Assembly (NCBI RefSeq): GCF_018278905.1
Contig: NZ_CP046600.1
Coordinates: 4,526,001-4,590,000, forward strand
DNA: 64,000 nucleotides
Direction: 5' to 3'
DNA from: Mycobacterium spongiae
GTDB lineage: Bacteria > Actinomycetota > Actinomycetes > Mycobacteriales > Mycobacteriaceae
Below, piece by piece: positions 40,560 to 64,000 of this stretch; the stretch's first letter is position 1, and each line of letters starts with the position of its first letter. The position numbers and the translations under genes are program-made. The notes beneath the pieces were generated by a model, which worked only from the letters and a program-made list of their open reading frames with translations, was not told the DNA's origin and did not search any database.

Positions 40560-40632
40560 GCCCCCGTAGCTCAGGGGATAGAGCACGGCTCTCCTAAAGC
40601 CGGTGTCGCAGGTTCGAATCCTGCCGGGGGCG
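40560..40632 (+). tRNA. tRNA-Arg (anticodon CCU)
   Basis: A full cloverleaf can be drawn. The acceptor GCCCCCG pairs with CGGGGGC, the D stem is GCTC/GAGC, and the anticodon stem CGGCT/AGCCG surrounds loop CTCCTAA, with anticodon CCT. The T stem GCAGG/CCTGC encloses TTCGAAT. Discriminator G is at 40632 and CCA is not encoded. Its last bases form part of the 20-bp sequence duplicated around the IS481-family element. Confidence 0.97.
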
Positions 40633-40640
40633 CGTTGTGG
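40621..40640 (+). repeat. 20-bp direct repeat, left copy (tRNA 3' end)
   Basis: CTGCCGGGGGCGCGTTGTGG lies directly left of the IS481-family element and recurs exactly at 41947-41966 directly right of it. Twelve of its bases are the 3' end of tRNA-Arg. It is either an unusually long target duplication or a duplicated tRNA attachment core. Confidence 0.85.
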
Positions 40641-41946
40641 TGTCTCGGGACATCGTTGACAGGTGTCCCGAGACATTGTTGGCATCTAGACCCGGTTTGT
40701 GGGGCTGTTTCCGCTTTTTACGCCGCGTGGTTGGTAGTCGCGGGTGGGGTCGAGGGTGAGTTTGCGGATGAGTTGGCCGGTGTTGTGGTTGAGCACGCGG
40801 ATGTCGAGGTCGTCGATGAGGACGGTGACTGTGGTTCCGCGGAGGTGTTTGGATAGGCCGATGTGGTGTAGGCGGCTGTTGTGGCGGAGGGTGATGACGC
40901 CGGCGGCGTCGATTGTGTCTCGGCGGACGCGGTAGTGCGGTGGGATCTGGTGACCGGTGGGGAAGGCCTTGGGCCGGCCGTGGAACGCCTGTATGGGGGT
41001 GCGGCGGCGTAGCGCCCGATGGGGGCGGACGGTGTTGTAGTAGTCCAGGAAGGCGTCGATCTGGTGTTGCAGCTCGGTGGGTGTCGCTGCTGGTGGTAGG
41101 GCGTGGAGGTGTTTCTTGAGGGTTTGGTGGAAGCGCTCGACCTTGCCGCAGGTCTGGGGATGGTAGGGGCGTGAGCGGCTGTATTTGATGCCGAGTTGAC
41201 CCAGGGTGATTTCTAGGGCGGTGCGTCCGTTGCCGCGTTGTTTGGCGGTGAAGATGGCACCGTTGTCGGTGAGAATGGTTGCCGGCGTGTCCCATTGGCT
41301 GAATGCGGCGACGAAGTCATCGACGACGTCGGGTCCGCGGGTTACGGGTCGGGCGTGGCTGGAGATGGCAAGCCGGGAGTGGTCGTCGATGATGTTGAGT
41401 ATCTCGACTTCGGTGTGGTCGGCGAGGTGCCAGTGGGTGACGTCGGCCTGCCACAACTGGTTGGGTTGTTCGGCGCAGAAGCGTTTCCACGATGAGCGGG
41501 GTCGTTTCTGCGGCTGCGCGACGACGAATCCGCGTCGGGTCAGGATTCGCCAGATCGTGGATACCGCGGGGACGTGGGGAACTGCGGGGTCGCGGGCGAG
41601 GTGTTCGGCGATGGTGGCAGCGCCAGCGTCGTAGCCCTGTCTATCCAAGGTTTTGCGCAGCCGCACGATTTTGTCTTCGAGTTGGCCGCCGACCGCGCGG
41701 GGATTGTGGTGGGGCCGGCGCGAGCGTGGTTCGAACGCGGCCGCGCCTTCGGATTCATAGCGCTTGACCAGTTGCTGGACCCAGTAGCGCGAGACCTCGT
41801 AGTCGCGGGCGACGTCGCTTTTGCTGCGCCCTTCCAACACGACGGCGGTGATGACGAGCTGCGCCTTGGACATGGCTGACCTCCCGAAACAACGAGGTGT
41901 CAACTATGTCGCGAGACAGCTGCCAACTATGTCGTGAAACCAGACA
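40641..41946 (-). mobile_element. IS481-family insertion sequence (about 1.3 kb)
   Basis: The element is bounded by TGTCTCGGGACATCGTTGAC on the left and, read inward from the right, TGTCTGGTTTCACGACATAG. These imperfect inverted ends begin with TGT, as in IS481. A second internal copy of the end motif occurs on each side (TGTCCCGAGACATTG; TGTCTCGCGACATAG). It carries one intact transposase gene and is flanked by the exact 20-bp direct repeat at 40621 and 41947. It appears complete and possibly active. Confidence 0.85.
40686..41873 (-). CDS. IS481-family transposase
   Basis: The 395-residue transposase has an N-terminal helix-turn-helix (MSKAQLVITAVVLEGRSKSD, VSRYWVQQLVKRYESEG) and an rve integrase core. 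In the core the catalytic residues appear as LWQADVTHWHL (Asp), LTDNGAIFT (Asp) and CGKVERFHQTLKKHL (Glu). The ATG at 41873 is preferred over an upstream in-frame start at 41903. No frameshifts are seen, so it is probably functional. Confidence 0.92.
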   Translation of the reverse strand: MSKAQLVITAVVLEGRSKSDVARDYEVSRYWVQQLVKRYESEGAAAFEPRSRRPHHNPRAVGGQLEDKIVRLRKTLDRQGYDAGAATIAEHLARDPAVPHVPAVSTIWRILTRRGFVVAQPQKRPRSSWKRFCAEQPNQLWQADVTHWHLADHTEVEILNIIDDHSRLAISSHARPVTRGPDVVDDFVAAFSQWDTPATILTDNGAIFTAKQRGNGRTALEITLGQLGIKYSRSRPYHPQTCGKVERFHQTLKKHLHALPPAATPTELQHQIDAFLDYYNTVRPHRALRRRTPIQAFHGRPKAFPTGHQIPPHYRVRRDTIDAAGVITLRHNSRLHHIGLSKHLRGTTVTVLIDDLDIRVLNHNTGQLIRKLTLDPTRDYQPRGVKSGNSPTNRV

Positions 41947-42259: not shown

Positions 42260-45200
42260 CTAGGGAATGTTGGCGAGCCAACTTTCCAGCTCACCGGCAG
42301 TTTCCCGGGCGAGTGAGTCAACTACATCGAAATGTCCGCAATCCATTTCAATAACAAAGTGGCGATGCGGATCAGCCACCGAGCCCCACAGGTCGACACT
42401 ATCGTCATAAATTTCATTGAACGCGGGATTGACACGGTCGCGCGCCACCAAGGTCATCATTGGCAGATCCACCGATTCTTCCGGCTCCCAGCGTGACAAC
42501 ATAGATAGGTAGTTGAACGAAGCGGTCAGTTGACTTTCGTTGAGAATACCAAGAGTCTCGGCAACCTCTACCAAGTGCTCCAGCACACCTTCCCGGATGG
42601 TTTTGCGCTCTTCGAGCATCTGTTCAAGCGTCGAACCGGCCTCGTTCCGGGTAATTCTGATGCCCAGCTGCGACGGTGTATACGGGTCCAACAACGCCAG
42701 TCCGCATACCGGCAATCCCATTTTCTTGAGGCGGATAGCACTCAGGTAAGCCATTATTCCGCCAGACGAAAAACCTATCGGCACAATCCTTTTGATATCA
42801 CCCAGATTCCGCAGCCTAGATGCCATCGCATCGGCCAACATCTCCGAAGCTACTTCTATATCTGCTGGAATACCATCCTCCGGGCCGTAGCCAGGTAGCT
42901 GAGAAATGTACACCGAATGACGATCCCCGACAGCGTCAACAATTCCCCGATATTCATGTATTCCCGACAAAGGCGTTAGCGAGGGCAGGAAAACCAGAGC
43001 GATATCTGATTTATCGGAAATTCGGAGATAGTCGGGACCACGCCACTCCGGACGCTCTACCGCGGTAACCCGTTTACGCAGTTCAGTTACCGCCGCCACA
43101 ATGTTCCAGCCGCCTTGGAGATTGCCCGAATCTTTTGCCCGCAGGAACAACTTGGTCAGTTCATCGACCTCCTCCTCGGAGTCGACAGCTGCCGCATCAA
43201 TTGTGCCCGGCTCGATATTCATCTGACTAAGCATGTGGACGGCAAGTTCTTGCGGGGTCGGGTGATCAAGAACCACGGTGCTCGACAAATTGATCCCGGT
43301 ATCGGCTTTGATGCGATTGCGCAGCTCAATTCCGGTCAACGAATTGAACCCCGAATCCTTAAACGGCTGCCCACGATCAATCTCGGCGGCACTACCGCGT
43401 CCCAACACCGCCGCCGCATGCCCAGCGACCACCTCGGCGACCTCCGCGCACTGCTCAGCGAAACCCAACCCCGCCAACCGGGCCTTCAGCGCTGAGCCCG
43501 ATCCCGAACCCGCCCCGGCCGTGATAGCAGGGGCCGGGGATGGGCCAGCCGGGGCTAATTCGGCCCACAACGGGCCCAGCATCCCCGTGGCGCCCATCGA
43601 GCGCAGCGCCGCACGATCGATCTGGGCGGCCACCACCGCCGCACGCCCACCAGCCAACGCCGCATCGAACAAGCCCACCGCCGTCGGCGCGCTCATCGGC
43701 GCGATCCCCGAGCGGGCCATCCGGCGCAGATCCTGCTCACCCATCCCGGAGGTCATAGCGCTTTGCTGGGCCCACAAACCCCAAATCAAAGACGTAGCAG
43801 CCAAACCCTGTGAACGCCGATACCCAGCCAACGCATCAACAAAACAATTGGCTGCGGCGTAGTTGGCCTGCCCCGGGCCACCAACCGTGCCCGACAGCGA
43901 AGAAAACAGCGCAAAAAGCCCCAGATTCATCTCCCGGGTCAATTCATGCAAATTCCAAGCGGCATCAACCTTGGAACGCAACACCGCATCCAGACGCTCA
44001 ACGCTGAGATCGGTGACCACCGCGTCATCGAGCACCCCGCCGGCATGAATCACACCACTTAACGGATGCTCGACGCTGATCTGCGCCAACACCGCGCCAA
44101 GCTGATCACGATCAGCCACATCACACGCCAGCACCTGCACGCCAGCCCCCGCCGCGCCAAGCTCATCAACCAAATCACCGGCCCCAGGCGCCGCCAGCCC
44201 ACGCCGGCTCACCAACACCACATGACGCACACCACAGTGAGCCACCACATGACGGGCCAACACCGATCCGGCCATCCCCGTACCGCCGGTGATCAACACC
44301 GTGCCCCACGCCCACGACGCCCCCGGCAGCGTCAACACCAACTTCCCGGTATGGCGGGCCTGACCCATCACCCGATACACCTGCCGAGCCCGACGCACAT
44401 CAACCGCGCGAGTGGCAAGCGCCGACAACGCACCCGCATCAAACAACTCGGCCAACACCGACAACATCTGCTGAACCCGATCACCATCAACCGCGCCCAG
44501 ATCAAAGACCTCATAGACCACCCCCGGATGCTGCACCGCGATCACCTCAGGGTCGCGGATATCGGTTTTACCCATCTCCACAAACCGACCACCCGCAGAC
44601 AACAAACCCAGCGAGGCATCCACAAACTCGCCCGCCAAACAGTCCAACACCACATCAACCCCGCGCCCACCAGTCACCTCAGCGAACTTATGTGCGAAAT
44701 CAAGACTGCGGGAATCACCAATATGATCCTCATCTAAACCCAACCCCCGCAGCACATCCCACTTACCGCGAGAAGCCGTGGCAAAAACCTCCGCACCCAC
44801 ATAACGAGCCAACTGAATCGCGGCCATCCCCACCCCACCGGTACCGGCATGAATCAGCACCGACTGTCCAGCACACAACCCGCCCAGATCCAGCAAGCCG
44901 TAATACGCGGTCAAAAACACCGCCGGCGCCCCCGCAGCCTGCGGCATCGACCACCCCTGCGGCACCGCCGTGAGCAACCGGTGATCACTGACCACGACCG
45001 GACCAGTGCCCTCACACAGCCCCATCACCGCATCACCAACAGCCAACCCACTGACCCCAGGGCCAACCTCCACAACCACCCCCGCACCCTCACAACCCAG
45101 CACTCGACCACTAGCCACTGTCTGCTCAGGAGGAAGAAGCCCTAACGAGAGAACGACATCGCGGAAGTTCACTCCCGCAGCCCGCAAAGCAATCCGCACC

Positions 45201-48200
45201 TGCCCGGCCGTCAACGCCGCCTGGGCACCCGGATGCTCACACAACGCCACCTCATCCAACCGACCCGACCCCGACGCCTCCAAACGCCACAACCCGCTGC
45301 CCTGATCAGGGATGGCCAACAACTCCTCATCAACAGCGGACAACCGAGCCGCATACCGCACCCCAGAACGGATCACCAACTGCGACTCACCGCTGGCCAA
45401 CACCTGCGATACGTCAAGACCAGCATCATCATCGGTATCAACCACAACGATGCGCCCCGGGTGCTCGGTTTGGGCGCTACGCACCAACCCCCACAACGCG
45501 GCCGCGGCAAGATCATCGGCCACCCCCAGATCAGACAATTCAGTCCCGACAATGTCGCTCACCGGATCATCGACCACACTGACCGCACCCGACGTCACGA
45601 TCACCAACACCCCAGGATGATCACCAGCCAACCAACGCTGAATCACCCCCAACCCAGCACGCACCAACCCATGAGTGGCCCCAACAACATCACCCCCGAC
45701 ACCAGCACCCCCACCACCGCCGCCAGCATGCTCAACGCCACTGCCGCGGAACTCCGCTACCCGCCAGCACACCGCCAACGACTCCGACAACTCACTTCGT
45801 GCCTCAACCCCCAACCCGGCGTCTGCAACAGCGCAGAACCGTTCCCACGACCACACCGACAAACCCGCCCCCGAGACACCATCGCCCGCAACCGATTCCA
45901 GCGCCCGCCAGGAAACCTGCAACAACGAACCACCAACAACCGGATCGACCTTGCGCACACCAGCAAGCAACTGCTCAACACTGACAGCACGAATAGCCAA
46001 CGACTCCACCGAAACCAACAGCGCGCCATCAGCATCGGTGAGCTGCACACTAACCGTGTCGTCAGTCAAGATCCTGATATGTGCCCGGGCGTGCTGTGCC
46101 CCTGTCGACCACAGGCGTACCTGGTGCCAAGAGAACGGCAGCGATACCGAGCCCGCCTCCGCCCGAGCAGCATCGGCTACCCGGGTAGCCGCCAGCGCAT
46201 GCAGGGCGGCATCCAACAGGATGGGGTGCACACCGAAGGCCATATCACTACCACTGGCCGCATCGGGGATCGTCACCTCGGCATAGATCTGGTCATCGAG
46301 CTGCCACATAGCACCTAAGCCCGCGAATTCCGGGCCGTACTCGTAACCTAATTTGGCCAGTCGCCCGTAGACCCCACCAACATCCACCGCGACTGCACCC
46401 ACGGGGGGCCATGTCTGCAATTCGGACGTAGCTGAGGTGGCGCTCACGTTGCCGATGGTGCCCTGGGCGTGTAGCACCCAGTCGGCGCCCTCGCGGTCGA
46501 TACGCGAATACAGCGCCACCTCACGAGTACCGTCAGGATGCGGCGGGCTTACTTGAATCCGCACATCAACACCCAGCTCACCCGGAATCACCAGCGGCAC
46601 CATCACGACTACCTGCTCGATGCCCTCGCAGCCAACGGCATCAGCCGCACGCAACACCATCTCCACCAGGCCAGTACCGGGCACAATCAACACCCCGCCA
46701 ACCTGATGGCCGACCAACCACGGATGGGTAGCCACCGAAAGCCGCCCGGTAAGCACCACCGACCCGCTACCAGGATCCTCGATCACCGCGCTCAACATGT
46801 CATGGGCCACAGGCCGAATGCCCGCACCAGCCAGATCACCGATCTCCCGGCTACTGTCCAACCAGAACCGCTGCCGCTGAAACGCATACGTCGGCAACCC
46901 AACCCGCTGGGCCCCGGACCCTTCGAACACCGCAGACCAGTCGACTCCAACACCACCGGCGTAAGCAAAAGCGATAGAACGCAACATCCGGTCCAACCCG
47001 CCGTCATCGCGACCCAACGAGGGCACCACCACATCCTGGCCCCCGGCTCCACCGCCAGCGCCCCGCGCTTCCAAACACTCCTCAATCGCGGCCAACAACA
47101 CCGCATGAGGACTGACCTCAACAAACACCGTATGCCCGCTAGCGTGCGCACTATCTACCGCTGATGCGAAATCAACAGTGCGCCGCAAGTTCTCAAACCA
47201 ATAATCAGCATCCAACCCAGCGGTATCCATCACCTCACCAGACAGCGTGGAGAAAAACGCCACCGGCGCGCTGCGCGCACAGATATCACCCAACCCACCA
47301 ATCACATCGGACTTAATCGCCTCCACCTGCGCGCAATGAGAGGCATAGTCAACATCAATGCGCCGACACCACACACCGGCCACATCACAACGATCCACCA
47401 CCTGCTCCACGGCATCAACATCACCAGAAACCACCACCGAACCCGGCGCATTAACCACCGCAACACTGAGCCGATCACCAAACTCACCGATCAACTCCGC
47501 CACCCGCTCACGACCCACCCCGATCGCGGCCATAGCACCTGAACCCGCCAACCGCACCAACGCCTGACTCCGCAACGCCACGACCTTGGCGCCCTCAGCC
47601 AACGACAACGCACCAGCCACACACGCCGCAGCAATCTCACCCTGGGAATGACCAATCACCGCATCCGGAATAACCCCCACCGAAGCCCACACCCGAGCCA
47701 ACGACACCATCACCGCCCACAACACCGGCTGAACCACATCAACCCGATCCAGCCCCGGCGCCCCCGACACCCCACACACCACATCAACCAACGACCACTG
47801 CACAAACGGCGCCAACGCCCGCTCACAAGCATCCATCGCCTCAGCAAAAACCGGTGACTCCCGATACAACTGCTGACCCATCCCCAACCACTGCCCGCCC
47901 TGACCCGGAAACACCAACACCGTCTTACCGACCCGACGCGCCTGCCCACTAACCACCGCAACATTCGGCCGCCCCGCCGCGACATCAGCCAAACCACTGA
48001 CCAATTCCTCACGGCTACGCCCCACCACCACCGCACGGTGATCAAACACCGCCCGAGTCGACACCAACGAATACCCCACATCGGCGACACCCAAATCCGG
48101 ACAAGCACCCACATACCCAGCAAGCCGACCAGCCTGAGCAACCAACCCATCAGCCGACTTAGCCGACACCACCCACGGCACGGTGCCCGAGGTCCATGAC

Positions 48201-51200
48201 ACGGCTGGGCTCTGCGGCGCTTGGCCGGCGGGATCAGCCAGCGGCGCCGGTGGGGCGGCCACAATCACATGCGCGTTGGTGCCGCTGATTCCGAATGCGG
48301 AGACCGCAGCTCGGCGTGGGCGTCCGTCGGTGTCAGGCCATGGGCGTGATTGGGTGAGTAGTTCAACGGCTCCGGCCGACCAATCCACCTCGGAGGTGGG
48401 GGTATCCACATGCAGTGTGGCCGGCAGGGTTGCGTGTTGGAGGGCTTGAACCATTTTGATCACACCGCCGATGCCTGCGGCGGCTCCGGTGTGGCCGATG
48501 TTGGACTTCAGTGAGCCCAGCCATAGCGGCGAATCGCTGTTGTGGGCCTGGCCGTAGGTGGCCAGCACGGCTTGGGCTTCGATGGGGTCTCCCAGCGTGG
48601 TGCCGGTGCCGTGGGCCTCGACGACATCGACGTCGGCCCGCTCGATGCCGGCATCAGCAAGCGCGGCGTCAATCACCTGGGCCTGGGCCGGCCCGTTGGG
48701 AGCGGTCAGTCCGTTGGAGGCGCCGTCCTGGTTGACTGCTGAGCCTTCCAGCACCGCTAAGACCTGCCGGCCGGCGCGGCGAGCATCAGAGAGACGCTGC
48801 AAGACCACCATCGCAGCGCCCTCGCCGAACCCGGTTCCGTCGGCAGCATCGGCGAATGCTTTGCAGCGCCCGTCAACAGCCAGCCCACGCTGGCGGCTAA
48901 ACCCGATAAACAACGCGGGGCTGGCCAATACAGTGGCCCCACCGGCCAGGGCCAGCTCGCAGTCCCCTGAGCGCAGCGCTCGAACGGCCACGTTCAGCGC
49001 GACCAGCGATGAGGAGCACGCGGTGTCCACCGACATGGCCGGACCCTGTAGTCCCAGACTGTAGGAGATCCGGCCCGAAGCCACACTGGATGTCTGTCCG
49101 GTTCCTACATACCACTGGGCCTGTTCTGCGGTGGCGCCGTAGTCGTTGCTGTACACACCGACAAACACCCCGGTCGGGCTGCCACGCAGACCGGTCGGGT
49201 CGATCCCGGCGTCTTCTAAAGCCTCCCAGGACGTTTCGAGTAACAGCCGCTGTTGGGGATCCATCACCATGGCCTCACCCGGTGAGATACCGAAGAACTG
49301 GGCATCGAAATCGGTGACGCCCTCGATGAATCCGCCATGGCGGGTGTAGCACTTGCCGGGTGTATCAGGATCAGGGTCAAACAAGTTCCCCAGATCCCAT
49401 CCCCGATCATGCGGGAACTCAGTGATCACATCACGACCGTGGGACACCACATCCCATAAATCAGCCGCCGAGGACACCCCGCCCGGATAGCGACACCCGA
49501 TACCCACAATGGCAATCGGCTCAGCAGCATCAAAAGAGGCTTGCCGGGGCTGGGGCCGACTCGCGCCGACCTGCGGGGTGCCGAACATCTTCTCCACCAG
49601 ATGGGCCGCTAACGCCGCAGGGGTCGGGTGATCAAAAACCACGGTGCTCGACAAATTGATCCCGGTATCGGCTTTGATGCGATTGCGCAGCTCAATTCCG
49701 GTCAACGAATTGAACCCCGAATCCTTAAACGGCTGCCCACGATCAATCTCGGCGGCACTACCGCGTCCCAACACCGCCGCCGCATGCCCAGCGACCACCT
49801 CGGCGACCTCCGCGCACTGCTCAGCGAAACCCAACCCCGCCAACCGGGCCTTCAGCGCTGAGCCCGATCCCGAACCCGCCCCGGCCGTGATAGCAGGGGC
49901 CGGGGATGGGCCAGCCGGGGCTAATTCGGCCCACAACGGGCCCAGCATCCCCGTGGCGCCCATCGAGCGCAGCGCCGCACGATCGATCTGGGCGGCCACC
50001 ACCGCCGCACGCCCACCAGCCAACGCCGCATCGAACAAGCCCACCGCCGTCGGCGCGCTCATCGGCGCGATCCCCGAGCGGGCCATCCGGCGCAGATCCT
50101 GCTCACCCATCCCGGAGGTCATAGCGCTTTGCTGGGCCCACAAACCCCAAATCAAAGACGTAGCAGCCAAACCCTGTGAACGCCGATACCCAGCCAACGC
50201 ATCAACAAAACAATTGGCTGCGGCGTAGTTGGCCTGCCCCGGGCCACCAACCGTGCCCGACAGCGAAGAAAACAGCGCAAAAAGCCCCAGATTCATCTCC
50301 CGGGTCAATTCATGCAAATTCCAAGCGGCATCAACCTTGGAACGCAACACCGCATCCAGACGCTCAACGCTGAGATCGGTGACCACCGCGTCATCGAGCA
50401 CCCCGCCGGCATGAATCACACCACTTAACGGATGCTCGACGCTGATCTGCGCCAACACCGCGCCAAGCTGATCACGATCAGCCACATCACACGCCAGCAC
50501 CTGCACGCCAGCCCCCGCCGCGCCAAGCTCATCAACCAAATCACCGGCCCCAGGCGCCGCCAGCCCACGCCGGCTCACCAACACCACATGACGCACACCA
50601 CAGTGAGCCACCACATGACGGGCCAACACCGATCCGGCCATCCCCGTACCGCCGGTGATCAACACCGTGCCCCACGCCCACGACGCCCCCGGCAGCGTCA
50701 ACACCAACTTCCCGGTATGGCGGGCCTGACCCATCACCCGATACACCTGCCGAGCCCGACGCACATCAACCGCGCGAGTGGCAAGCGCCGACAACGCACC
50801 CGCATCAAACAACTCGGCCAACACCGACAACATCTGCTGAACCCGATCACCATCAACCGCGCCCAGATCAAAGACCTCATAGACCACCCCCGGATGCTGC
50901 ACCGCGATCACCTCAGGGTCGCGGATATCGGTTTTACCCATCTCCACAAACCGACCACCCGCAGACAACAAACCCAGCGAGGCATCCACAAACTCGCCCG
51001 CCAAACAGTCCAACACCACATCAACCCCGCGCCCACCAGTCACCTCAGCGAACTTATGTGCGAAATCAAGACTGCGGGAATCACCAATATGATCCTCATC
51101 TAAACCCAACCCCCGCAGCACATCCCACTTACCGCGAGAAGCCGTGGCAAAAACCTCCGCACCCACATAACGAGCCAACTGAATCGCGGCCATCCCCACC

Positions 51201-54200
51201 CCACCGGTACCGGCATGAATCAGCACCGACTGTCCAGCACACAACCCGCCCAGATCCAGCAAGCCGTAATACGCGGTCAAAAACACCGCCGGCGCCCCCG
51301 CAGCCTGCGGCATCGACCACCCCTGCGGCACCGCCGTGAGCAACCGGTGATCACTGACCACGACCGGACCAGTGCCCTCACACAGCCCCATCACCGCATC
51401 ACCAACAGCCAACCCACTGACCCCAGGGCCAACCTCCACAACCACCCCCGCACCCTCACCACCAAGCTGGGCCAGCGCATCTGGATACGAACCCAACGCG
51501 ATCAGCACATCGCGGAAGTTCACTCCCGCAGCCCGCAAAGCAATCCGCACCTGCCCGGCCGTCAACGCCGCCTGGGCACCCGGATGCTCACACAACGCCA
51601 CCTCATCCAACCGACCCGACCCCGACGCCTCCAAACGCCACAACCCGCTGCCCTGATCAGGGATGGCCAACAACTCCTCATCAACAGCGGACAACCGAGC
51701 CGCATACCGCACCCCAGAACGGATCACCAACTGCGACTCACCGCTGGCCAACACCTGCGATACGTCAAGACCAGCATCATCATCGGTATCAACCACAACG
51801 ATGCGCCCCGGGTGCTCGGTTTGGGCGCTACGCACCAACCCCCACAACGCGGCCGCGGCAAGATCATCGGCCACCCCCAGATCAGACAATTCAGTCCCGA
51901 CAATGTCGCTCACCGGATCATCGACCACACTGACCGCACCCGACGTCACGATCACCAACACCCCAGGATGATCACCAGCCAACCAACGCTGAATCACCCC
52001 CAACCCAGCACGCACCAACCCATGAGTGGCCCCAACAACATCACCCCCGACACCAGCACCCCCACCACCGCCGCCAGCATGCTCAACGCCACTGCCGCGG
52101 AACTCCGCTACCCGCCAGCACACCGCCAACGACTCCGACAACTCACTTCGTGCCTCAACCCCCAACCCGGCGTCTGCAACAGCGCAGAACCGTTCCCACG
52201 ACCACACCGACAAACCCGCCCCCGAGACACCATCGCCCGCAACCGATTCCAGCGCCCGCCAGGAAACCTGCAACAACGAACCACCAACAACCGGATCGAC
52301 CTTGCGCACACCAGCAAGCAACTGCTCAACACTGACAGCACGAATAGCCAACGACTCCACCGAAACCAACAGCGCGCCGGTGTGATCGCTGAGCTGCACG
52401 GCGCTCTCGCCGTTGCCTAAAGGCTTGACATGCACGCGGGCTGCCCGCGCACCGCGTGACCACACCCGCACGCCGCGACCGGCGAAGGGCAGCCGTAGTT
52501 TGCCCTCGCCCAGGCCGTCGAGTTCATCAAAAAGTGCGGCGTGCAGCGCGACGTCAAGCAGAATCGGGTGAATACACACATCATCTGCCCGGGTGTGAGC
52601 GGCCTCCGGGATCGCTACCTCGGCGAAGATCTCCTCACCGCGTTTCCAGGCTGCTTGCACACCAACGAATTCCGGGCCGTATTCATAGCCGACCTCAGCC
52701 AGCCGCGGATACAGGTCACTGGTGTCCAAGCGCTCAGCACCCCGCGGCGGCCAGGTTTGCAACTGGGAAACCTCCGGGGCGCTGCCCACATCACCGATAC
52801 TGCCCTGGGCGTGTAGCACCCAGTCGGCGCCCTCGCGGTCGATACGCGAATACAGCGCCACCTCACGAGTACCGTCAGGATGCGGCGGGCTTACTTGAAT
52901 CCGCACATCAACACCCAGCTCACCCGGAATCACCAGCGGCACCATCACGACTACCTGCTCGATGCCCTCGCAGCCAACGGCATCAGCCGCACGCAACACC
53001 ATCTCCACCAGGCCAGTACCGGGCACAATCAACACCCCGCCAACCTGATGGCCGACCAACCACGGATGGGTAGCCACCGAAAGCCGCCCGGTAAGCACCA
53101 CCGACCCGCTACCAGGATCCTCGATCACCGCACTGAGCATCTGATGAGCCGCGCCCCCGATGCCCGCACCAGCCAGATCACCGATCTCCCGGCTACTGTC
53201 CAACCAGAACCGCTGCCGCTGAAACGCATACGTCGGCAACCCAACCCGCTGGGCCCCGGACCCTTCGAACACCGCAGACCAGTCGACTCCAACACCACCG
53301 GCGTAAGCAAAAGCGATAGAACGCAACATCCGGTCCAACCCGCCGTCATCGCGACCCAACGAGGGCACCACCACATCCTGGCCCCCGGCCCCACCGCCAG
53401 CGCCCCGCGCTTCCAAACACTCCTCAATCGCGGCCAACAACACCGCATGAGGACTGACCTCAACAAACACCGTATGCCCGCTAGCGTGCGCACTATCTAC
53501 CGCTGATGCGAAATCAACAGTGCGCCGCAAGTTCTCAAACCAATAATCAGCATCCAACCCAGCGGTATCCATCACCTCACCAGACAGCGTGGAGAAAAAC
53601 GCCACCGGCGCGCTGCGCGCACAGATATCACCCAACCCACCAATCACATCGGACTTAATCGCCTCCACCTGCGCGCAATGAGAGGCATAGTCAACATCAA
53701 TGCGCCGACACCACACACCGGCCACATCACAACGACCCACCACCTGCTCCACGGCATCAACATCACCAGAAACCACCACCGAACCCGGCGCATTAACCAC
53801 CGCAACACTGAGCCGATCACCAAACTCACCGATCAACTCCGCCACCCGCTCACGACCCACCCCGATCGCGGCCATAGCACCTGAACCCGCCAACCGCACC
53901 AACGCCTGACTCCGCAACGCCACGACCTTGGCGCCCTCAGCCAACGACAACGCACCAGCCACACACGCCGCAGCAATCTCACCCTGGGAATGACCAATCA
54001 CCGCATCCGGAATAACCCCCACCGAAGCCCACACCCGAGCCAACGACACCATCACCGCCCACAACACCGGCTGAACCACATCAACCCGATCCAGCCCCGG
54101 CGCCCCCGACACCCCACACACCACATCAACCAACGACCACTGCACAAACGGCGCCAACGCCCGCTCACAAGCATCCATCGCCTCAGCAAAAACCGGTGAC

Positions 54201-57200
54201 TCCCGATACAACTGCTGACCCATCCCCAACCACTGCCCGCCCTGACCCGGAAACACCAACACCGTCTTACCGACCCGACGCGCCTGCCCACTAACCACCG
54301 CAACATTCGGCCGCCCCGCCGCGACATCAGCCAAACCACTGACCAATTCCTCACGGCTACGCCCCACCACCACCGCACGGTGATCAAACACCGCCCGAGT
54401 CGACACCAACGAATACCCCACATCGGCGACACCCAAATCCGGACAAGCACCCACATACCCAGCAAGCCGACCAGCCTGAGCAACCAACCCATCAGCCGAC
54501 TTAGCCGACACCACCCACGGCACGGTGCCCGAGGTCCATGACACGGCTGGGCTCTGCGGCGCTTGGCCGGCGGGATCAGCCAGCGGCGCCGGTGGGGCGG
54601 CCACAATCACATGCGCGTTGGTGCCGCTCATTCCGAATGCGGAGACCGCAGCTCGGCGTGGGCGTCCGTCGGTGTCAGGCCATGGGCGTGATTGGGTGAG
54701 TAGTTCAACGGCTCCGGCCGACCAATCCACCTCGGAGGTGGGGGTATCCACATGCAGTGTGGCCGGCAGGGTTGCGTGTTGGAGGGCTTGAACCATTTTG
54801 ATCACACCGCCGATGCCTGCGGCGGCTCCGGTGTGGCCGATGTTGGACTTCAGTGAGCCCAGCCATAGCGGCGAATCGCTGTTGTGGGCCTGGCCGTAGG
54901 TGGCCAGCACGGCTTGGGCTTCGATGGGGTCTCCCAGCGTGGTGCCGGTGCCGTGGGCCTCGACGACATCGACGTCGGCCCGCTCGATGCCGGCATCAGC
55001 AAGCGCGGCGTCAATCACCTGGGCCTGGGCCGGCCCGTTGGGAGCGGTCAGTCCGTTGGAGGCGCCGTCCTGGTTGACTGCTGAGCCTTCCAGCACCGCT
55101 AAGACCTGCCGGCCGGCGCGGCGAGCATCAGAGAGACGCTGCAAGACCACCATCGCAGCGCCCTCGCCGAACCCGGTTCCGTCGGCAGCATCGGCGAATG
55201 CTTTGCAGCGCCCGTCAACAGCCAGCCCACGCTGGCGGCTAAACCCGATAAACAACGCGGGGCTGGCCAATACAGTGGCCCCACCGGCCAGGGCCAGCTC
55301 GCAGTCCCCTGAGCGCAGCGCTCGAACGGCCACGTTCAGCGCGACCAGCGATGAGGAGCACGCGGTGTCCACCGACATGGCCGGACCCTGTAGTCCCAGA
55401 CTGTAGGAGATCCGGCCCGAAGCCACACTGGATGTCTGTCCGGTTCCTACATACCACTGGGCCTGTTCTGCGGTGGCGCCGTAGTCGTTGCTGTACACAC
55501 CGACAAACACCCCGGTCGGGCTGCCACGCAGACCGGTCGGGTCGATCCCGGCGTCTTCTAAAGCCTCCCAGGACGTTTCGAGTAACAGCCGCTGTTGGGG
55601 ATCCATCACCATGGCCTCACCCGGTGAGATACCGAAGAACTGGGCATCGAAATCGGTGACGCCCTCGATGAATCCGCCATGGCGGGTGTAGCACTTGCCG
55701 GGTGTATCAGGATCAGGGTCAAACAAGTTCCCCAGATCCCATCCCCGATCATGCGGGAACTCAGTGATCACATCACGACCGTGGGACACCACATCCCATA
55801 AATCAGCCGCCGAGGACACCCCGCCCGGATAGCGACACCCGATACCCACAATGGCAATCGGCTCAGCAGCATCAAAAGAGGCTTGCCGGGGCTGGGGCCG
55901 ACTCGCGCCGACCTGCGGGGTGCCGAACATCTTCTCCACCAGATGGGCCGCTAACGCCGCAGGGGTCGGGTGATCAAAAACCACGGTGCTCGACAAATTG
56001 ATCCCGGTATCGGCTTTGATGCGATTGCGCAGCTCAATTCCGGTCAACGAATTGAACCCCGAATCCTTAAACGGCTGCCCACGATCAATCTCGGCGGCAC
56101 TACCGCGTCCCAACACCGCCGCCGCATGCCCAGCGACCACCTCGGCGACCTCCGCGCACTGCTCAGCGAAACCCAACCCCGCCAACCGGGCCTTCAGCGC
56201 TGAGCCCGATCCCGAACCCGCCCCGGCCGTGATAGCAGGGGCCGGGGATGGGCCAGCCGGGGCTAATTCGGCCCACAACGGGCCCAGCATCCCCGTGGCG
56301 CCCATCGAGCGCAGCGCCGCACGATCGATCTGGGCGGCCACCACCGCCGCACGCCCACCAGCCAACGCCGCATCGAACAAGCCCACCGCCGTCGGCGCGC
56401 TCATCGGCGCGATCCCCGAGCGGGCCATCCGGCGCAGATCCTGCTCACCCATCCCGGAGGTCATAGCGCTTTGCTGGGCCCACAAACCCCAAATCAAAGA
56501 CGTAGCAGCCAAACCCTGTGAACGCCGATACCCAGCCAACGCATCAACAAAACAATTGGCTGCGGCGTAGTTGGCCTGCCCCGGGCCACCAACCGTGCCC
56601 GACAGCGAAGAAAACAGCGCAAAAAGCCCCAGATTCATCTCCCGGGTCAATTCATGCAAATTCCAAGCGGCATCAACCTTGGAACGCAACACCGCATCCA
56701 GACGCTCAACGCTGAGATCGGTGACCACCGCGTCATCGAGCACCCCGCCGGCATGAATCACACCACTTAACGGATGCTCGACGCTGATCTGCGCCAACAC
56801 CGCGCCAAGCTGATCACGATCAGCCACATCACACGCCAGCACCTGCACGCCAGCCCCCGCCGCGCCAAGCTCATCAACCAAATCACCGGCCCCAGGCGCC
56901 GCCAGCCCACGCCGGCTCACCAACACCACATGACGCACACCACAGTGAGCCACCACATGACGGGCCAACACCGATCCGGCCATCCCCGTACCGCCGGTGA
57001 TCAACACCGTGCCCCACGCCCACGACGCCCCCGGCAGCGTCAACACCAACTTCCCGGTATGGCGGGCCTGACCCATCACCCGATACACCTGCCGAGCCCG
57101 ACGCACATCAACCGCGCGAGTGGCAAGCGCCGACAACGCACCCGCATCAAACAACTCGGCCAACACCGACAACATCTGCTGAACCCGATCACCATCAACC

Positions 57201-60200
57201 GCGCCCAGATCAAAGACCTCATAGACCACCCCCGGATGCTGCACCGCGATCACCTCAGGGTCGCGGATATCGGTTTTACCCATCTCCACAAACCGACCAC
57301 CCGCAGACAACAAACCCAGCGAGGCATCCACAAACTCGCCCGCCAAACAGTCCAACACCACATCAACCCCGCGCCCACCAGTCACCTCAGCGAACTTATG
57401 TGCGAAATCAAGACTGCGGGAATCACCAATATGATCCTCATCTAAACCCAACCCCCGCAGCACATCCCACTTACCGCGAGAAGCCGTGGCAAAAACCTCC
57501 GCACCCACATAACGAGCCAACTGAATCGCGGCCATCCCCACCCCACCGGTACCGGCATGAATCAGCACCGACTGTCCAGCACACAACCCGCCCAGATCCA
57601 GCAAGCCGTAATACGCGGTCAAAAACACCGCCGGCGCCCCCGCAGCCTGCGGCATCGACCACCCCTGCGGCACCGCCGTGAGCAACCGGTGATCACTGAC
57701 CACGACCGGACCAGTGCCCTCACACAGCCCCATCACCGCATCACCAACAGCCAACCCACTGACCCCAGGGCCAACCTCCACAACCACCCCCGCACCCTCA
57801 CCACCAAGCTGGGCCAGCGCATCTGGATACGAACCCAACGCGATCAGCACATCGCGGAAGTTCACTCCCGCAGCCCGCAAAGCAATCCGCACCTGCCCGG
57901 CCGTCAACGCCGCCTGGGCACCCGGATGCTCACACAACGCCACCTCATCCAACCGACCCGACCCCGACGCCTCCAAACGCCACAACCCGCTGCCCTGATC
58001 AGGGATGGCCAACAACTCCTCATCAACAGCGGACAACCGAGCCGCATACCGCACCCCAGAACGGATCACCAACTGCGACTCACCGCTGGCCAACACCTGC
58101 GATACGTCAAGACCAGCATCATCATCGGTATCAACCACAACGATGCGCCCCGGGTGCTCGGTTTGGGCGCTACGCACCAACCCCCACAACGCGGCCGCGG
58201 CAAGATCATCGGCCACCCCCAGATCAGACAATTCAGTCCCGACAATGTCGCTCACCGGATCATCGACCACACTGACCGCACCCGACGTCACGATCACCAA
58301 CACCCCAGGATGATCACCAGCCAACCAACGCTGAATCACCCCCAACCCAGCACGCACCAACCCATGAGTGGCCCCAACAACATCACCCCCGACACCAGCA
58401 CCCCCACCACTGCCGCGGAACTCCGCTACCCGCCAGCACACCGCCAACGACTCCGACAACTCACTTCGTGCCTCAACCCCCAACCCGGCGTCTGCAACAG
58501 CGCAGAACCGTTCCCACGACCACACCGACAAACCCGCCCCCGAGACACCATCGCCCGCAACCGATTCCAGCGCCCGCCAGGAAACCTGCAACAACGAACC
58601 ACCAACAACCGGATCGACCTTGCGCACACCAGCAAGCAACTGCTCAACACTGACAGCACGAATAGCCAACGACTCCACCGAAACCAACAGCGCGCCGGTG
58701 TGATCGCTGAGCTGCACGGCGCTCTCGCCGTTGCCTAAAGGCTTGACATGCACGCGGGCTGCCCGCGCACCGCGTGACCACACCCGCACGCCGCGACCGG
58801 CGAAGGGCAGCCGTAGTTTGCCCTCGCCCAGGCCGTCGAGTTCATCAAAAAGTGCGGCGTGCAGCGCGACGTCAAGCAGAATCGGGTGAATACACACATC
58901 ATCTGCCCGGGTGTGAGCGGCCTCCGGGATCGCTACCTCGGCGAAGATCTCCTCACCGCGTTTCCAGGCTGCTTGCACACCAACGAATTCCGGGCCGTAT
59001 TCATAGCCGACCTCAGCCAGCCGCGGATACAGGTCACTGGTGTCCAAGCGCTCAGCACCCCGCGGCGGCCAGGTTTGCAACTGGGAAACCTCCGGGGCGC
59101 TGCCCACATCACCGATACTGCCCTGGGCGTGTAGCACCCAGTCGGCGCCCTCGCGGTCGATACGCGAATACAGCGCCACCTCACGAGTACCGTCAGGATG
59201 CGGCGGGCTTACTTGAATCCGCACATCAACACCCAGCTCACCCGGAATCACCAGCGGCACCATCACGACTACCTGCTCGATGCCCTCGCAGCCAACGGCA
59301 TCAGCCGCACGCAACACCATCTCCACCAGGCCAGTACCGGGCACAATCAACACCCCGCCAACCTGATGGCCGACCAACCACGGATGGGTAGCCACCGAAA
59401 GCCGCCCGGTAAGCACCACCGACCCGCTACCAGGATCCTCGATCACCGCACTGAGCATCTGATGAGCCGCGCCCCCGATGCCCGCACCAGCCAGATCACC
59501 GATCTCCCGGCTACTGTCCAACCAGAACCGCTGCCGCTGAAACGCATACGTCGGCAACCCAACCCGCTGGGCCCCGGACCCTTCGAACACCGCAGACCAG
59601 TCGACTCCAACACCACCGGCGTAAGCAAAAGCGATAGAACGCAACATCCGGTCCAACCCGCCGTCATCGCGACCCAACGAGGGCACCACCACATCCTGGC
59701 CCCCGGCCCCACCGCCAGCGCCCCGCGCTTCCAAACACTCCTCAATCGCGGCCAACAACACCGCATGAGGACTGACCTCAACAAACACCGTATGCCCGCT
59801 AGCGTGCGCACTATCTACCGCTGATGCGAAATCAACAGTGCGCCGCAAGTTCTCAAACCAATAATCAGCATCCAACCCAGCGGTATCCATCACCTCACCA
59901 GACAGCGTGGAGAAAAACGCCACCGGCGCGCTGCGCGCACAGATATCACCCAACCCACCAATCACATCGGACTTAATCGCCTCCACCTGCGCGCAATGAG
60001 AGGCATAGTCAACATCAATGCGCCGACACCACACACCGGCCACATCACAACGACCCACCACCTGCTCCACGGCATCAACATCACCAGAAACCACCACCGA
60101 ACCCGGCGCATTAACCACCGCAACACTGAGCCGATCACCAAACTCACCGATCAACTCCGCCACCCGCTCACGACCCACCCCGATCGCGGCCATAGCACCT

Positions 60201-62503
60201 GAACCCGCCAACCGCACCAACGCCTGACTCCGCAACGCCACGACCTTGGCGCCCTCAGCCAACGACAACGCACCAGCCACACACGCCGCAGCAATCTCAC
60301 CCTGGGAATGACCAATCACCGCATCCGGAATAACCCCCACCGAAGCCCACACCCGAGCCAACGACACCATCACCGCCCACAACACCGGCTGAACCACATC
60401 AACCCGATCCAGCCCCGGCGCCCCCGACACCCCACACACCACATCAACCAACGACCACTGCACAAACGGCGCCAACGCCCGCTCACAAGCATCCATCGCC
60501 TCAGCAAAAACCGGTGACTCCCGATACAACTGCTGACCCATCCCCAACCACTGCCCGCCCTGACCCGGAAACACCAACACCGTCTTACCGACCCGACGCG
60601 CCTGCCCACTAACCACCGCAACATTCGGCCGCCCCGCCGCGACATCAGCCAAACCACTGACCAATTCCTCACGGCTACGCCCCACCACCACCGCACGGTG
60701 ATCAAACACCGCCCGAGTCGACACCAACGAATACCCCACATCGGCGACACCCAAATCCGGACAAGCACCCACATACCCAGCAAGCCGACCAGCCTGAGCA
60801 ACCAACCCATCAGCCGACTTAGCCGACACCACCCACGGCATCGCGCCCGACGACCACGGGGCACCATCAGCACCATCGAAACCGTCAGCTCGAGAGGGTA
60901 TTCGCTGCGCACCGCAGCCAGCTGCCGGTGCAGACTCCACAATCACATGCGCGTTGGTGCCGCCGAAGCCGAACGACGACACTCCGGCCAGCCTTGGGCG
61001 GTTCGTCCCGTCATGGGGCCACTCGGTTGACTCGTCCACAACCTTCAGGCGCATCCCGGGAAAGTCAATCTGAGGGTTGGGGGTCTCATATCGGAAGTTC
61101 GCCGGGATGACGCCGTGCTGCAAGGCACATACCACCTTGGCGAAACCGGCAAGCCCGGCCGCAACCTCCAGATGCCCCAGATTCGATTTGACCGCGCCCA
61201 ACAGCAACGGGTTATCCACCGCCCGACCGCGCCCGAGCACCTGCCCCAACGCCCGAGCCTCAATCGGGTCACCCAATACCGTTCCGGTGCCGTGCGCCTC
61301 GACAAAATCCACTTGCTGCGGTTTGACCCCCGCAGATGCACACGCCGCCCGCAACACAGCCATCTGGGCGGATGGATTTGGTGCCGTCAGGCCATTTGAG
61401 CGGCCATCCTGATTCAGCGCAGACCCGCGAACCACCGCCAGTACCCGATCACCATCACAAATCGCGTCGTCGAGCCGCTTAAGGACAACGACCCCGGCAC
61501 CCTCGCCGCGCACGTAACCATCAGCCGACGCGTCAAACGAATGGCACTGCCCAGACCGCGATAAGGCCTCAAGCAGCTCAAATCCCCGTGTCGTCGCCGG
61601 GGAGAGTAGAAGATTCACCCCGGCCGCCAACGCCAGGTTCGACTCGCCGGATCGCAAGTTCTGACACGCTAGGTGTACGGCCACCAACGACGATGAACAC
61701 GCCGTGGCCACAGTCATCGACGGGCCGCGCAATCCAAAAATGTATGACACCCGATTGGCGATGATGCTCGGCGCCAAACCCGTGTTACGCCAGATGTTCA
61801 CCTTGTCCGGATCTCGCGACGCGATCCCCGCGTACTCGCCGGAACTCGCACCAACGAACACGCCCGTCGGCGAATCAACCAACGAATCTGGCAGAATCCC
61901 GGAGTTCTCCAGGGCTTCGTAGACTACCTCCAGCAGAATTCTCTGCTGGGGATCCATAGCAGCCGCCTCGCTGGGGGTGATCCCAAAGAAATCCGCGTCG
62001 AATGAATCGACATCGCCCAGAAACGACCCCCACCGTCCAGCGTCCTGTACCAGGCCCGCCTCGAACCAGCCACCCCGTTCCAACGGCACTTCGCCTACCG
62101 CGCTGCGCCCCTCCTGCAAAAACTCCCAATACGAGTCCAGGCTGTCGATGCCGCCGGGGAACCGTAACCCCAACCCGATCACCGCAATATCGCCGTCCGT
62201 TGGCGTCCGCTCCGGACCCCTTGCCAGTTCCGGCGCTAACTGATCGCTCTCCGCGCCCGGGGCACCGGCCAGGTAACGCGACAACGCATCAACCGTCGGA
62301 TACTGCCAGAATTCAACCGGCGAAACGTTGCGTTCCAGCAACTGAGATAGCTCACCGACCAGCGCCACCGCATCTTTTGATCCAAGACCGAGTTCACGAA
62401 TCGGGGTGCTCGAATCAAGGGTTTCCAGCTCGCATTCAAGGAAGTCAGCCAGATAGGCGAGTAACCAGTTACGAAGGCCCGCCTCGTCGAAACCAGCACT
62501 CAT
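42260..62503 (-). CDS. three-module fully reducing type I polyketide synthase with loading ACP and thioesterase
   Basis: The 6747-residue megasynthase has these domains, with rough residues. Loading ACP 1-80 (GLGSKD, Ser42). Module 1: KS 104-530 (Cys269), AT with Ser733, DH with His1046, ER with GTGGVGMAA near 1655, KR 1830-2010, ACP with Ser near 2152. Module 2: KS 2213-2640 (Cys2382), AT Ser2839, DH His3152, ER near 3770, KR near 3950-4120, ACP near 4266. Module 3: KS 4327-4750 (Cys4496), AT Ser4953, DH His5266, ER near 5889, KR near 6075-6240, ACP near 6388. Thioesterase 6485-6747 (GFSSGG, Ser6579; CGHFD). AT motifs GHSQGE and YASH indicate methylmalonyl-CoA. KR domains carry LDD (B type) with Ser-Tyr-Asn. 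All active-site residues are present. It overlaps the upstream acyl-AMP ligase by 4 bp (ATGA), so the ligase probably loads a fatty acid on the N-terminal ACP. The predicted product is a 2,4,6-trimethyl fatty acid. Modules are nearly identical in DNA; module 3 has swapped DH and ER segments. Confidence 0.93.
43254..49619 (-). repeat. PKS module repeat, copy 3 (KS3-AT3-DH3-ER3-KR3-ACP3)
   Basis: This is the last module of the protein. It is almost base-identical to copy 2 except for two replaced patches: the second half of DH (about 46020-46460) and the ER loop (about 45100-45165). A few single-base changes also occur (for example 47395, 48290). The offset to copy 2 is 6366 bp at the ACP end and 6342 bp at the KS end. 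Confidence 0.9.
49620..55961 (-). repeat. PKS module repeat, copy 2 (KS2-AT2-DH2-ER2-KR2-ACP2)
   Basis: This is the middle module, 6342 bp. From ACP through AT it is essentially identical to copy 1 apart from the 24-bp insertion near 52070-52100, and its KS is nearly identical to KS3. It is thus the bridge between the other two modules. Confidence 0.9.
55962..60839 (-). repeat. PKS module repeat, copy 1 (AT1-DH1-ER1-KR1-ACP1)
   Basis: Identity with copies 2 and 3 runs from the ACP end to 60839, inside the KS-AT linker ([15 protein letters not shown]), and then stops sharply. KS1 upstream is an unrelated KS sequence. This copy lacks 24 bp (eight residues, about VEHAGGGG) near 58410. Confidence 0.9.
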
Positions 62504-64000
62504 CTTTCAGTACCATCGACGAACCTGAACCGGCCCTCCTGATACATGCGGGCACTTTCTGCTCGACGCACCTTGCCGCTGGTTGTCGTGGGCAGAGAGC
62601 CCGATGGAACCCAAACTACATCGGCAACTCCAGCCGAATGCCGCGCAGAAATCGCGCCGACCACGTTCTTGCAGTTGGTCTCAAGCACAGCCGCATCCGT
62701 GTGGTCTTTGACTTCGGCGATGATGACCAACATTTCCGTTGTGGCCCCAGGAACTGACACGGCTGCCACTCTGCCTTGGCTTTTCGTTACCGCGCGAACG
62801 GTTTCCTCAATGTCATCCGGGTAGTGGTTGCGCCCATCGATGATCAGCAGGTCCTTGATCCGACCAGCAATAAACAACTCACCGTCGAAGATGAAACCCA
62901 GATCGCCAGTGCGCAGCCAGGGACCTCGCGGAGTGCCGGGCGCAGGATCGGATAGCTGCGCGCCGAATACCTGCTCGGTCCGCTCCGCGTTCCCCCAATA
63001 ACCCGCCGCGATGTGATCGCCGCTGGCCCAGACCTCGCCAACCTGTCCAGCCAGCACCTCGACCCGGAACTCCGGGTCTACAACGATGACATCGGACGAC
63101 CGCGGCGCGCCGCAGCTGGTGAGCTCAACGCAATCCTCCTCATCCCGATCACACGTCTGCGCATAGCCCGCAGACAACTTGTCTTGGTGAAAGGACTCCG
63201 TCACTGGTGGCCGGTGACCATCGGAGGTCACCACATAGACCGTCGCCTCTGCCAATCCGTAGGAGGGCCGCATCGCGGTGCCCGGAAGGCCGATTGGCGC
63301 CAGCAGTTCGGAAAACTGGCGAATCGTTCTGGCTTGGACCCGTTCGGCGCCATTGATCATCACGCACACGTCGTCCAGCCTGAGACCGATCAGGTCCGTC
63401 TCCTTGACCCTCTTAGCCACCAGATCGTAGGCAAAATTTGGCGCGGCCGTGTAAACCCGTTTGCTTGCAGCCAGGTGCTTGATCCACCGTATTGGGCTCT
63501 GCACAAAGGCCACCGGAGTCATCAGTACCGCTGGGCGGCACATATAGATGGGCAACAACACCCCGACAATCAGGCCCATGTCATGATAAAACGGCAGCCA
63601 GGAGACTACGGTGAAGTCCTTTTCCGCACCTTCGGCCGCTTCAAAGTGGTCGCGCACAATTTGAGCGACATTGGCCACGATGTTGCTATGAGTGATGATC
63701 GCGCCGGACGGCTGGCTAGTCGAGCCTGACGTGTACTGCAAATATGCGGGTTTCGACAAGTTGCCGGTATCAGGCAACTGCTCTGCATCGCAGAGCCGAG
63801 TCGACGTGATCGACTCGAACGCCAGGCTGTCGATCTCGATAACCCTCAACCTGGCTGAGGGAAGCACCTTGGTTGCGGCGTTCGCGAGTTCAACGCACAC
63901 GTCCGCGTCCACAGACCGGGTGAGCAACGCAACCGGATTGCAGTTGCGTATCGTCCCGAGCAGAGCATCATTTCCCTGGCCCGGGTACGGCGTTGGCAGC
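62500..64000 (-). CDS. fatty-acyl-AMP ligase (FAAL/FadD-type), 5' end outside window
   Basis: The frame is open to the window edge, so the N-terminus (about 100 residues) is missing; the visible part begins [20 protein letters not shown]-binding motifs are [46 protein letters not shown] and the hinge region [24 protein letters not shown] (written in two parts), with [10 protein letters not shown]. The pattern YHDMGL plus a PKS neighbour is typical of mycobacterial FAALs, which activate fatty acids as acyl-adenylates and hand them to an ACP rather than to CoA. Its TGA overlaps the PKS ATG (ATGA), strongly suggesting that it loads the N-terminal ACP of the PKS. Confidence 0.93.

Follow-up and report, generated by a model that had tools for sequence, protein, structure and literature searches.

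A trimodular polyketide synthase gene of Mycobacterium spongiae with nearly identical modules and one divergent enoylreductase segment

Mycobacterium spongiae FSD4b-SM is a slow grower from a marine sponge, and its genome was sequenced by PacBio RSII/HGAP3 with Illumina correction (PMC11361433). Here, we describe a large modular polyketide synthase (PKS) gene, with adjoining genes for a fatty-acyl-AMP ligase (FAAL) and a major facilitator superfamily (MFS) exporter, in a 64,000-nucleotide stretch of that genome (the window; NZ_CP046600.1, positions 4,526,001 to 4,590,000, forward strand). The assembly (GCF_018278905.1) is one contig of 5,581,157 bp; the module count and near-perfect module identity given below are those of this published PacBio and Illumina assembly, not of the reads.

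Gene structure and domain architecture

The PKS gene was a single open frame (42260-62503, minus strand; ATG start; 6,747 aa) with no internal stop. Its start and the FAAL stop share the letters ATGA, the 4-bp overlap already described in a first-pass annotation of the same DNA. The FAAL gene crosses the window edge at 64000 and encodes 605 aa at full length (L001:500-2317(-)), to about 64317. Beyond the window, an MFS gene on the same strand (482 aa from the first possible start) ends 47 bp upstream of the FAAL start. From this spacing, we infer that MFS, FAAL, and PKS genes form one transcription unit, extending about 1.8 kb past 64000 through the MFS gene, which corrects the earlier end point at the window edge. 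The parts of the FAAL-PKS pair, with ketosynthase (KS), acyltransferase (AT), dehydratase (DH), enoylreductase (ER), ketoreductase (KR), acyl carrier protein (ACP), and thioesterase (TE) domains, were as follows.

62500..64000, on to about 64317 outside the window, minus strand: FAAL (PF00501 AMP-binding, DIP2-like C-domain, PRK05850, PDB matches)
42260..62503, minus strand: trimodular type I PKS, 6,747 aa (open reading frame, motifs, Pfam)
62270..62467, minus strand: N-terminal (loading) ACP, aa 13-78 (PF00550; LGLGSKD)
61091..62191, minus strand: KS1, aa 105-471 (Pfam; KS tree)
55949..60577 (approximate ends), minus strand: module 1 AT-DH-ER-KR-ACP (Pfam positions, motifs)
49607..55852 (approximate ends), minus strand: module 2 KS-AT-DH-ER-KR-ACP (motifs; DNA identity with modules 1 and 3)
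43241..49510 (approximate ends), minus strand: module 3 KS-AT-DH-ER-KR-ACP (motifs; Pfam KR-ACP; DNA comparison)
42260..43222, minus strand: TE, aa 6428-6747 (Pfam, PDB match, TE alignment; Ser6579, Asp6606, His6724)

The domain order was ACP-(KS-AT-DH-ER-KR-ACP)x3-TE, and a motif scan found every catalytic motif sought in all three modules: KS, TACSSSL (aa 267, 2380, and 4494) and EAHGTGT; AT, GHSQGE (aa 731, 2837, and 4951) and YASH (aa 833, 2939, and 5053); DH, HxxxGxxxxP (aa 1046, 3152, and 5266) and HPILLD; ER, GTGGVG; KR, TGGTG and YAAANCF; and ACP, DSGFNSL. The N-terminal ACP carried LGLGSKD (aa 38) and the TE GFSSGG (aa 6577). A Pfam scan of two stretches, module 1 and the C-terminus (KR-ACP-TE), recovered all their domains. 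The AT signature (GHSQGE plus YASH) was of the methylmalonyl type in 3/3 ATs, and with DH, ER, and KR motifs intact throughout, all three modules were fully reducing by motif. This architecture with intact active sites, the AT motifs, the synthase's own TE, and the departure from a Mas-type single module had all been put forward in the first-pass annotation, and all were recovered here.

The TE scored 26.1 bits against PF00975, just under the cut-off of 26.4; its best PDB matches were FluC and the erythronolide synthase (DEBS) TE. Ser6579, Asp6606, and His6724 were invariant in 14/14 aligned TEs and, by alignment to the DEBS TE, are presumably the catalytic triad. The FAAL combined PF00501 with a DIP2-like C-domain; its best NCBIfam match was PRK05850 fatty-acid--AMP ligase (713.5 bits, below its cut-off of 775), and its best PDB matches were FadD23 and FadD28. 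The MFS protein was of the DHA2 type (best PDB match, EfpA; weaker match to a putative triacylglyceride transporter).

Module homogeneity and the divergent enoylreductase segment

From AT to ACP, modules 1 and 2 differed by a single indel of 24 nt, with 0 substitutions in 4,862 nt; modules 2 and 3 differed by three single substitutions outside three islands. KS2 and KS3 were one nucleotide apart (one residue, Met/Ile). Exact DNA repeats reached 3,781 nt at an offset of 6,342, and the repeat identity is far beyond chance. Distinct anchors within the modules ruled out chance or assembly noise as the main cause of the repeats, with a caveat kept for exact identity. The islands in module 3, compared with module 2, were as follows.

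46790..46817 (gene nt 15687-15714), minus strand: island 1, AT-DH linker and start of DH3 (28 nt, 12 substitutions)
46028..46458, minus strand: island 2, middle and C-terminal half of DH3 (about 425 nt; 167 substitutions, 21 indel nt)
45094..45155, minus strand: island 3, aa 5783-5804, the ER stereocontrol segment starting at position 45' (module comparison; 47 nt in module 2 versus 62 nt in module 3, 20 substitutions, 15 indel nt)

Nucleotide skew was strong in the AT and ER-KR blocks (AT: GC skew, 0.44; TA skew, 0.48), intermediate (0.17) in ACP-KS1, and absent from KS2, KS3, the TE, and both versions of the DH island. Both skews exceeded 0.25 in 229/385 one-kb windows of the gene versus 0/780 in positions 1-40000 of the stretch. 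Genetic repeats of intense nucleotide skews (GRINS) are described as ~1-kb repeats, often >90% identical, with GC and TA skew >25%, and are thought to promote gene conversion (PMC10394414). By skew and exact repeats, most of the homogenised sequence answered to this description. GRINS are nevertheless an incomplete explanation: KS2 and KS3 lack the skew and are still nearly identical, and modules 1 and 2 share an identical DH island that is likewise unskewed. Either a long conversion tract or a recent duplication must therefore have played a part as well. Similar extreme homogeneity in the mycolactone synthases has been ascribed to recombination or gene conversion (PMC2569948). For the islands, no close donor was found in the 11 other PKS regions of this genome that were compared, a set that does not include every KS match (DH, ≤52% identical; ER with flanks, ≤65%), and an origin of the islands from another PKS of this genome was rejected on that comparison.

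Island 3 falls on the positions that the ER stereocontrol rule concerns. As set out in section 4.5 of a review (PMC6264292), 2S products go with Tyr52' together with Leu46', Ile47', and Pro53', and 2R products with Val46', Val47', and Val (sometimes Ala or Phe) at 52', Pro53' not being conserved. ER1 and ER2 carried L-I-Y-P at 46'/47'/52'/53', the 2S signature. ER3 carried V-L-L-P, with Val46' and no Tyr, and may be called 2R-like. Positions 46'-53' correspond to aa 5784-5791 of module 3; the surrounding 22-codon stretch, with a 5-residue insertion, was the only diverged part of ER3, and the NADPH site and the remainder were DNA-identical to ER2. A random 17-codon segment in an ER of ~315 codons would take in all of 46'-53' in ~3% of placements, a rough figure reckoned by hand for a segment chosen post hoc.

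Among 38 distinct ER segments (taken with one pattern from fetched loci, 30 of them fetched for likeness to ER3; ER3 included, ER1 and ER2 left out), 27 had Tyr at 52' and 11 did not. Two of the 11 were close to ER3, with V-L-V-P in a 4,517-aa frame (L177) and I-V-L-P in a 5,572-aa frame (L183), both uninterrupted. The occurrence of such stretches in long uninterrupted PKS frames indicates that ER3 is not simply degenerate and argues for a working non-Tyr ER.

The Mas-like ER of this genome (L052) had Tyr at 52', as in the rule cited by the genome paper, which itself refers to a tryptophan conserved in the ER of Mas (PMC11361433); we took L052 to be the Mas of that paper by its position.

Predicted product and alternative readings

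Taken together, these features make it likely that the locus encodes a FAAL-primed, colinear, fully reducing line whose product would be a 2,4,6-trimethyl fatty acid, in the predicted form (2R,4S,6S). The FAAL would activate a fatty acid as acyl-AMP and load it onto the N-terminal ACP, from which KS1 would take the acyl chain. Modules 1, 2, and 3 would each add one methylmalonyl unit and fully reduce it, in one pass per module; the TE would hydrolyse (or transfer) the chain, and the adjacent MFS pump may export the product. In this scheme, extender, starter, release, and export are deduced from motifs and neighbouring genes, and one pass per module is likewise a prediction; the sequence by itself sets no length for the starter. 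The configuration follows from reading the 2S signature of ER1 and ER2 and the 2R-like ER3 with the published rule, so that the methyl branches probably differ in configuration, an amendment to the colinear 2,4,6-trimethyl reading of the first-pass annotation, which the sequence supports in part. More tentatively, and with somewhat more doubt than confidence, we suggest that GRINS conversion homogenised the modules yet the ER orientation segment stayed different in module 3, giving the mixed (2R,4S,6S) acid.

Synthases of the Mas/Pks2/Pks3-4 type use a single module repeatedly, with one ER for all rounds, and build methyl-branched acids from methylmalonyl-CoA on a FAAL-activated starter. The present synthase differs in having three modules, two ER versions, and a TE in cis, and a Mas-type iterative enzyme was ruled out by the three KS-AT-DH-ER-KR-ACP modules in one polypeptide. 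A mixed (2R,4S,6S) pattern is not what one iterative Mas-type ER should yield; the products of the Pks2 type are described as all-S (PMC11482735).

Several observations weigh against the predicted acid. Leu at 52' lies outside the residues named for 2R (Val, Ala, Phe), and ER3 retains Pro53'. In Pks12 of this genome (L048), the ER of the methylmalonyl module has Ile at 52' and that of the malonyl module Tyr, and Phe stands at 52' in three further mycobacterial Pks12-like ERs (L196, L198, and L209). The methyl groups of mycoketides are usually described as all S; with these non-Tyr ERs, the rule may not hold for Pks12, nor perhaps for the present line. Ile at 52' was also seen in two further methylmalonyl modules of this genome (L050/L051 region), so that non-Tyr ERs are not special to this PKS gene. 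Nothing clear accounts for the two DH islands. A Val52'-to-Tyr mutation in one ER left the product unchanged, according to the same review (PMC6264292).

Alternative readings change either the last steps of the line or the line itself. The TE may pass the acyl chain to an acceptor or close a ring on a hydroxylated starter, and the MFS protein would then export a small secreted metabolite and not an envelope lipid. The macrolide-type family of the TE, the DHA2-type exporter with its matches to EfpA and, more weakly, a putative triacylglyceride transporter, and the lack of a Pap or glycosyltransferase among 15 neighbours scanned are in keeping with this, but once fully reduced, a chain offers no nucleophile of its own other than one brought in by the starter, and we think such an outcome rather unlikely. 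Less likely again is a partly iterative line, stuttering as Pks12 does, with acids of more than three branches as products. Pks12 reuses its modules, so colinearity cannot be assumed, which also counts against the scheme above, and with KS2 and KS3 one nucleotide apart and the modules nearly identical, different chain lengths may be accepted alike; the cis-fused TE and the distinct KS1 favour one pass, and no sequence feature demands iteration.

With ER3 inactive or slow, the line would release a 2-enoic acid, a modular analogue of mycolipenic acid (which has a 2-ene and, at C4 and C6, S-methyls), or mixed products. Such a defect would suit a divergence confined to 22 codons, with its insertion, at the stereocontrol positions, and mycolipenic-type acyl groups with all-S methyls are known in mycobacteria (PMC11482735). 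We think it unlikely, ER3 outside this stretch (NADPH site included) being DNA-identical to ER2 and similar non-Tyr stretches occurring in other long PKS frames. Repeat collapse or over-polishing of 6.3-kb near-identical repeats on PacBio RSII/HGAP3 with Illumina correction (PMC11361433) could in principle have produced the near-identity or the number of modules. This is highly improbable: KS1, the 24-nt indel, and the three islands of module 3 serve to tell the three modules apart, and similar extreme identity has been described for the mycolactone PKSs (PMC2569948).

FAAL-primed modular PKSs are already known, and the synthase is a new form of them; new here are the pattern of DNA identity among the modules and, as the most surprising point, the ER island amid otherwise homogenised modules. 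If the (2R,4S,6S) prediction is true, mycobacteria would have a second logic for multimethyl-branched lipids, with the number of branches set by modules and each centre by its own ER, and unusual lipids might be sought in this close relative of the tuberculosis bacillus, with the locus as their candidate source. The two ER versions, differing in one short segment of an otherwise identical ER-KR-ACP, would then offer a clean in vivo test of the stereocontrol rule, a natural counterpart, within 22 codons, of laboratory ER residue swaps, and a case of homogenisation sparing a functional segment.

Relatives, distribution, and genomic setting

Relatives of the TE and the FAAL were sought in 396 genus genomes (own genome included) and in further samples, which together do not cover every species. 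The TE matched in 49/396 genus genomes at E 1e-3, and only three others reached E 1.1e-40 or better (33-36% identity); identities were 25-34% in an order-level sample (298 genomes), and a TE scan of named genomes found no relative among 103 pattern hits. The FAAL matched in 284/396 genomes at E 1e-150 (three candidates scored per genome), the best other among the matches listed being 56% identical. FAAL-ACP-KS1 DNA matched in 83/100 relatives (own included), with the best other match, in genome G036, ~66% identical over 2.8 kb. On these figures (TE ≤36% and FAAL ≤56% identical among the matches listed), a recent transfer from any of the sampled relatives was rejected. A plasmid origin was likewise rejected: 182 plasmid records matched module DNA, three with their best place at 80-95% identity, and 0 covered 80% of that DNA; TE matches on plasmids were <60% identical (26 records).

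The three TE relatives sit in FAAL-PKS-TE loci (G104, G160, and G236). In G160, the neighbour is an F420-dependent glucose-6-phosphate dehydrogenase gene (fgd1), with ackA close by (both by NCBIfam), and the gene in the fgd1 position of G104 and G236 has the same first 20 residues as in G160. We take this fgd1-side locus to be the FadD30-Pks6 position of the M. tuberculosis gene order. Like the synthase, these loci have a FAAL upstream and a terminal TE (31-33% identity across the domain as aligned, and 33-36% when genomes were searched). Unlike it, they have two KS domains and not three, an AT motif of the malonyl type (HAFH), neither DH nor ER motifs in a pattern scan, and another location; their FAALs are 38-41% identical to the present one, versus 47% for the PpsA-type FAAL of this genome. 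Two genes make up the fgd1-side PKS (L063-L068) in G104, against a single gene in G160 and G236.

In a KS tree (52 rows, 10 open forks, some long branches elsewhere), KS2 and KS3 joined the second KS of the fgd1-side lines (100/99), and KS1 clustered with KSs that stand first in PpsA-like and fgd1-side FAAL-PKS lines (98/96), groupings in keeping with a FAAL-primed line. We see the synthase as what may be a Pks6-like scaffold that gained reducing methylmalonyl modules, and make no firm family assignment, given the differences in AT motif, module count, FAAL, and locus. The first-pass annotation had called the cluster uncharacterised. A literature search, largely without subscription papers, found no characterised trimodular FAAL-PKS-TE of such kind, which agrees with that view, but FAAL-PKS-TE loci as such do exist beside fgd1.

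PpsA-E and related FAAL-PpsA-like lines share FAAL-primed extension by successive modules with the synthase, whose FAAL and KS1 most resemble them (FAAL, best 56% among the matches listed; KS1, 69%); unlike it, they are spread over several proteins and showed no TE motif by pattern in the fetched loci. G036 and G310 had PpsA-E-like clusters (L088-L091) with methylmalonyl AT motifs and a pair of FAAL genes. Pks12 of this genome (4,221-aa frame, two KS) likewise joins several reducing modules in one polypeptide, but has two modules, with one methylmalonyl and one malonyl AT motif, and no AMP-binding match in the 20 kb fetched; the only TE match of this genome in the genus search is the synthase's own. 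The mycolactone synthases (Mls) and GRINS-bearing cis-AT PKSs share the extreme identity within genes but follow another product logic; for Mls, domain or stereochemical swaps are described at whole-domain scale (PMC2569948), whereas homogenisation of the present synthase leaves out an ER stereocontrol segment.

On its downstream side, the cluster adjoins a tRNA gene, with a transposase gene in between.

40686..41903, minus strand: IS481-family transposase, context and non-biosynthetic (NCBIfam NF033577, 237.9 bits, cut-off 224)
40560..40633, plus strand: tRNA-Arg(CCT), context, a conserved anchor at the edge of a variable interval (tRNA call)

A tRNA-Arg(CCT) lies near luciferase-like and mntH genes in 4/4 fetched relatives (G028, G006, G023, and G030), and no FAAL or MFS match was found in the 19-20 kb examined there, in a search whose queries did not include the PKS. 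Three of the four have a thiolase/dioxygenase block ~3-9 kb past the tRNA; G030 has no such match within 15 kb beyond the tRNA and carries an IS481 relative directly at it. The comparison places the synthase in a variable interval. The first-pass annotation had proposed looking past 64 kb for PapA, MmpL, or a glycosyltransferase; the MFS exporter was found there, and none of the three appeared in the 15 neighbouring open reading frames scanned (most frames of the window lay outside the scan).

The genome paper lists five species-specific loci, including three PKS regions with unknown products (F6B93_18505-18675, 19200-19380, and 21085-21320; PMC11361433). The synthase is probably one of these three regions, and interpolated tag spacing suggests the first (F6B93_18505-18675). 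A second large PKS locus (G000:C1:4786001-4826000; L045 and L046), with open frames of 3,917, 3,646, and 5,694 aa and KS domains that are near-identical, reaches skews of about 0.56; it has even stronger GRINS-like repeats and is probably another of them.

The IS481 transposase of the window (40686-41903(-)) and a copy at G000:C1:2587457-2588671(-) encode proteins that are 100% identical; these two IS481-family genes stand against the genome paper's statement of no insertion sequence elements (PMC11361433). A PstS gene in the window had its nearest named relatives, at 81%, in M. gastri, M. innocens, M. attenuatum, M. persicum, M. szulgai, and M. angelicum, in a comparison that may omit genomes very close to this one. 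Near it lie two adjacent Ser/Thr kinase genes, 26217-28349(+) and 29756-31777(+), with C-terminal beta-propeller-like matches.

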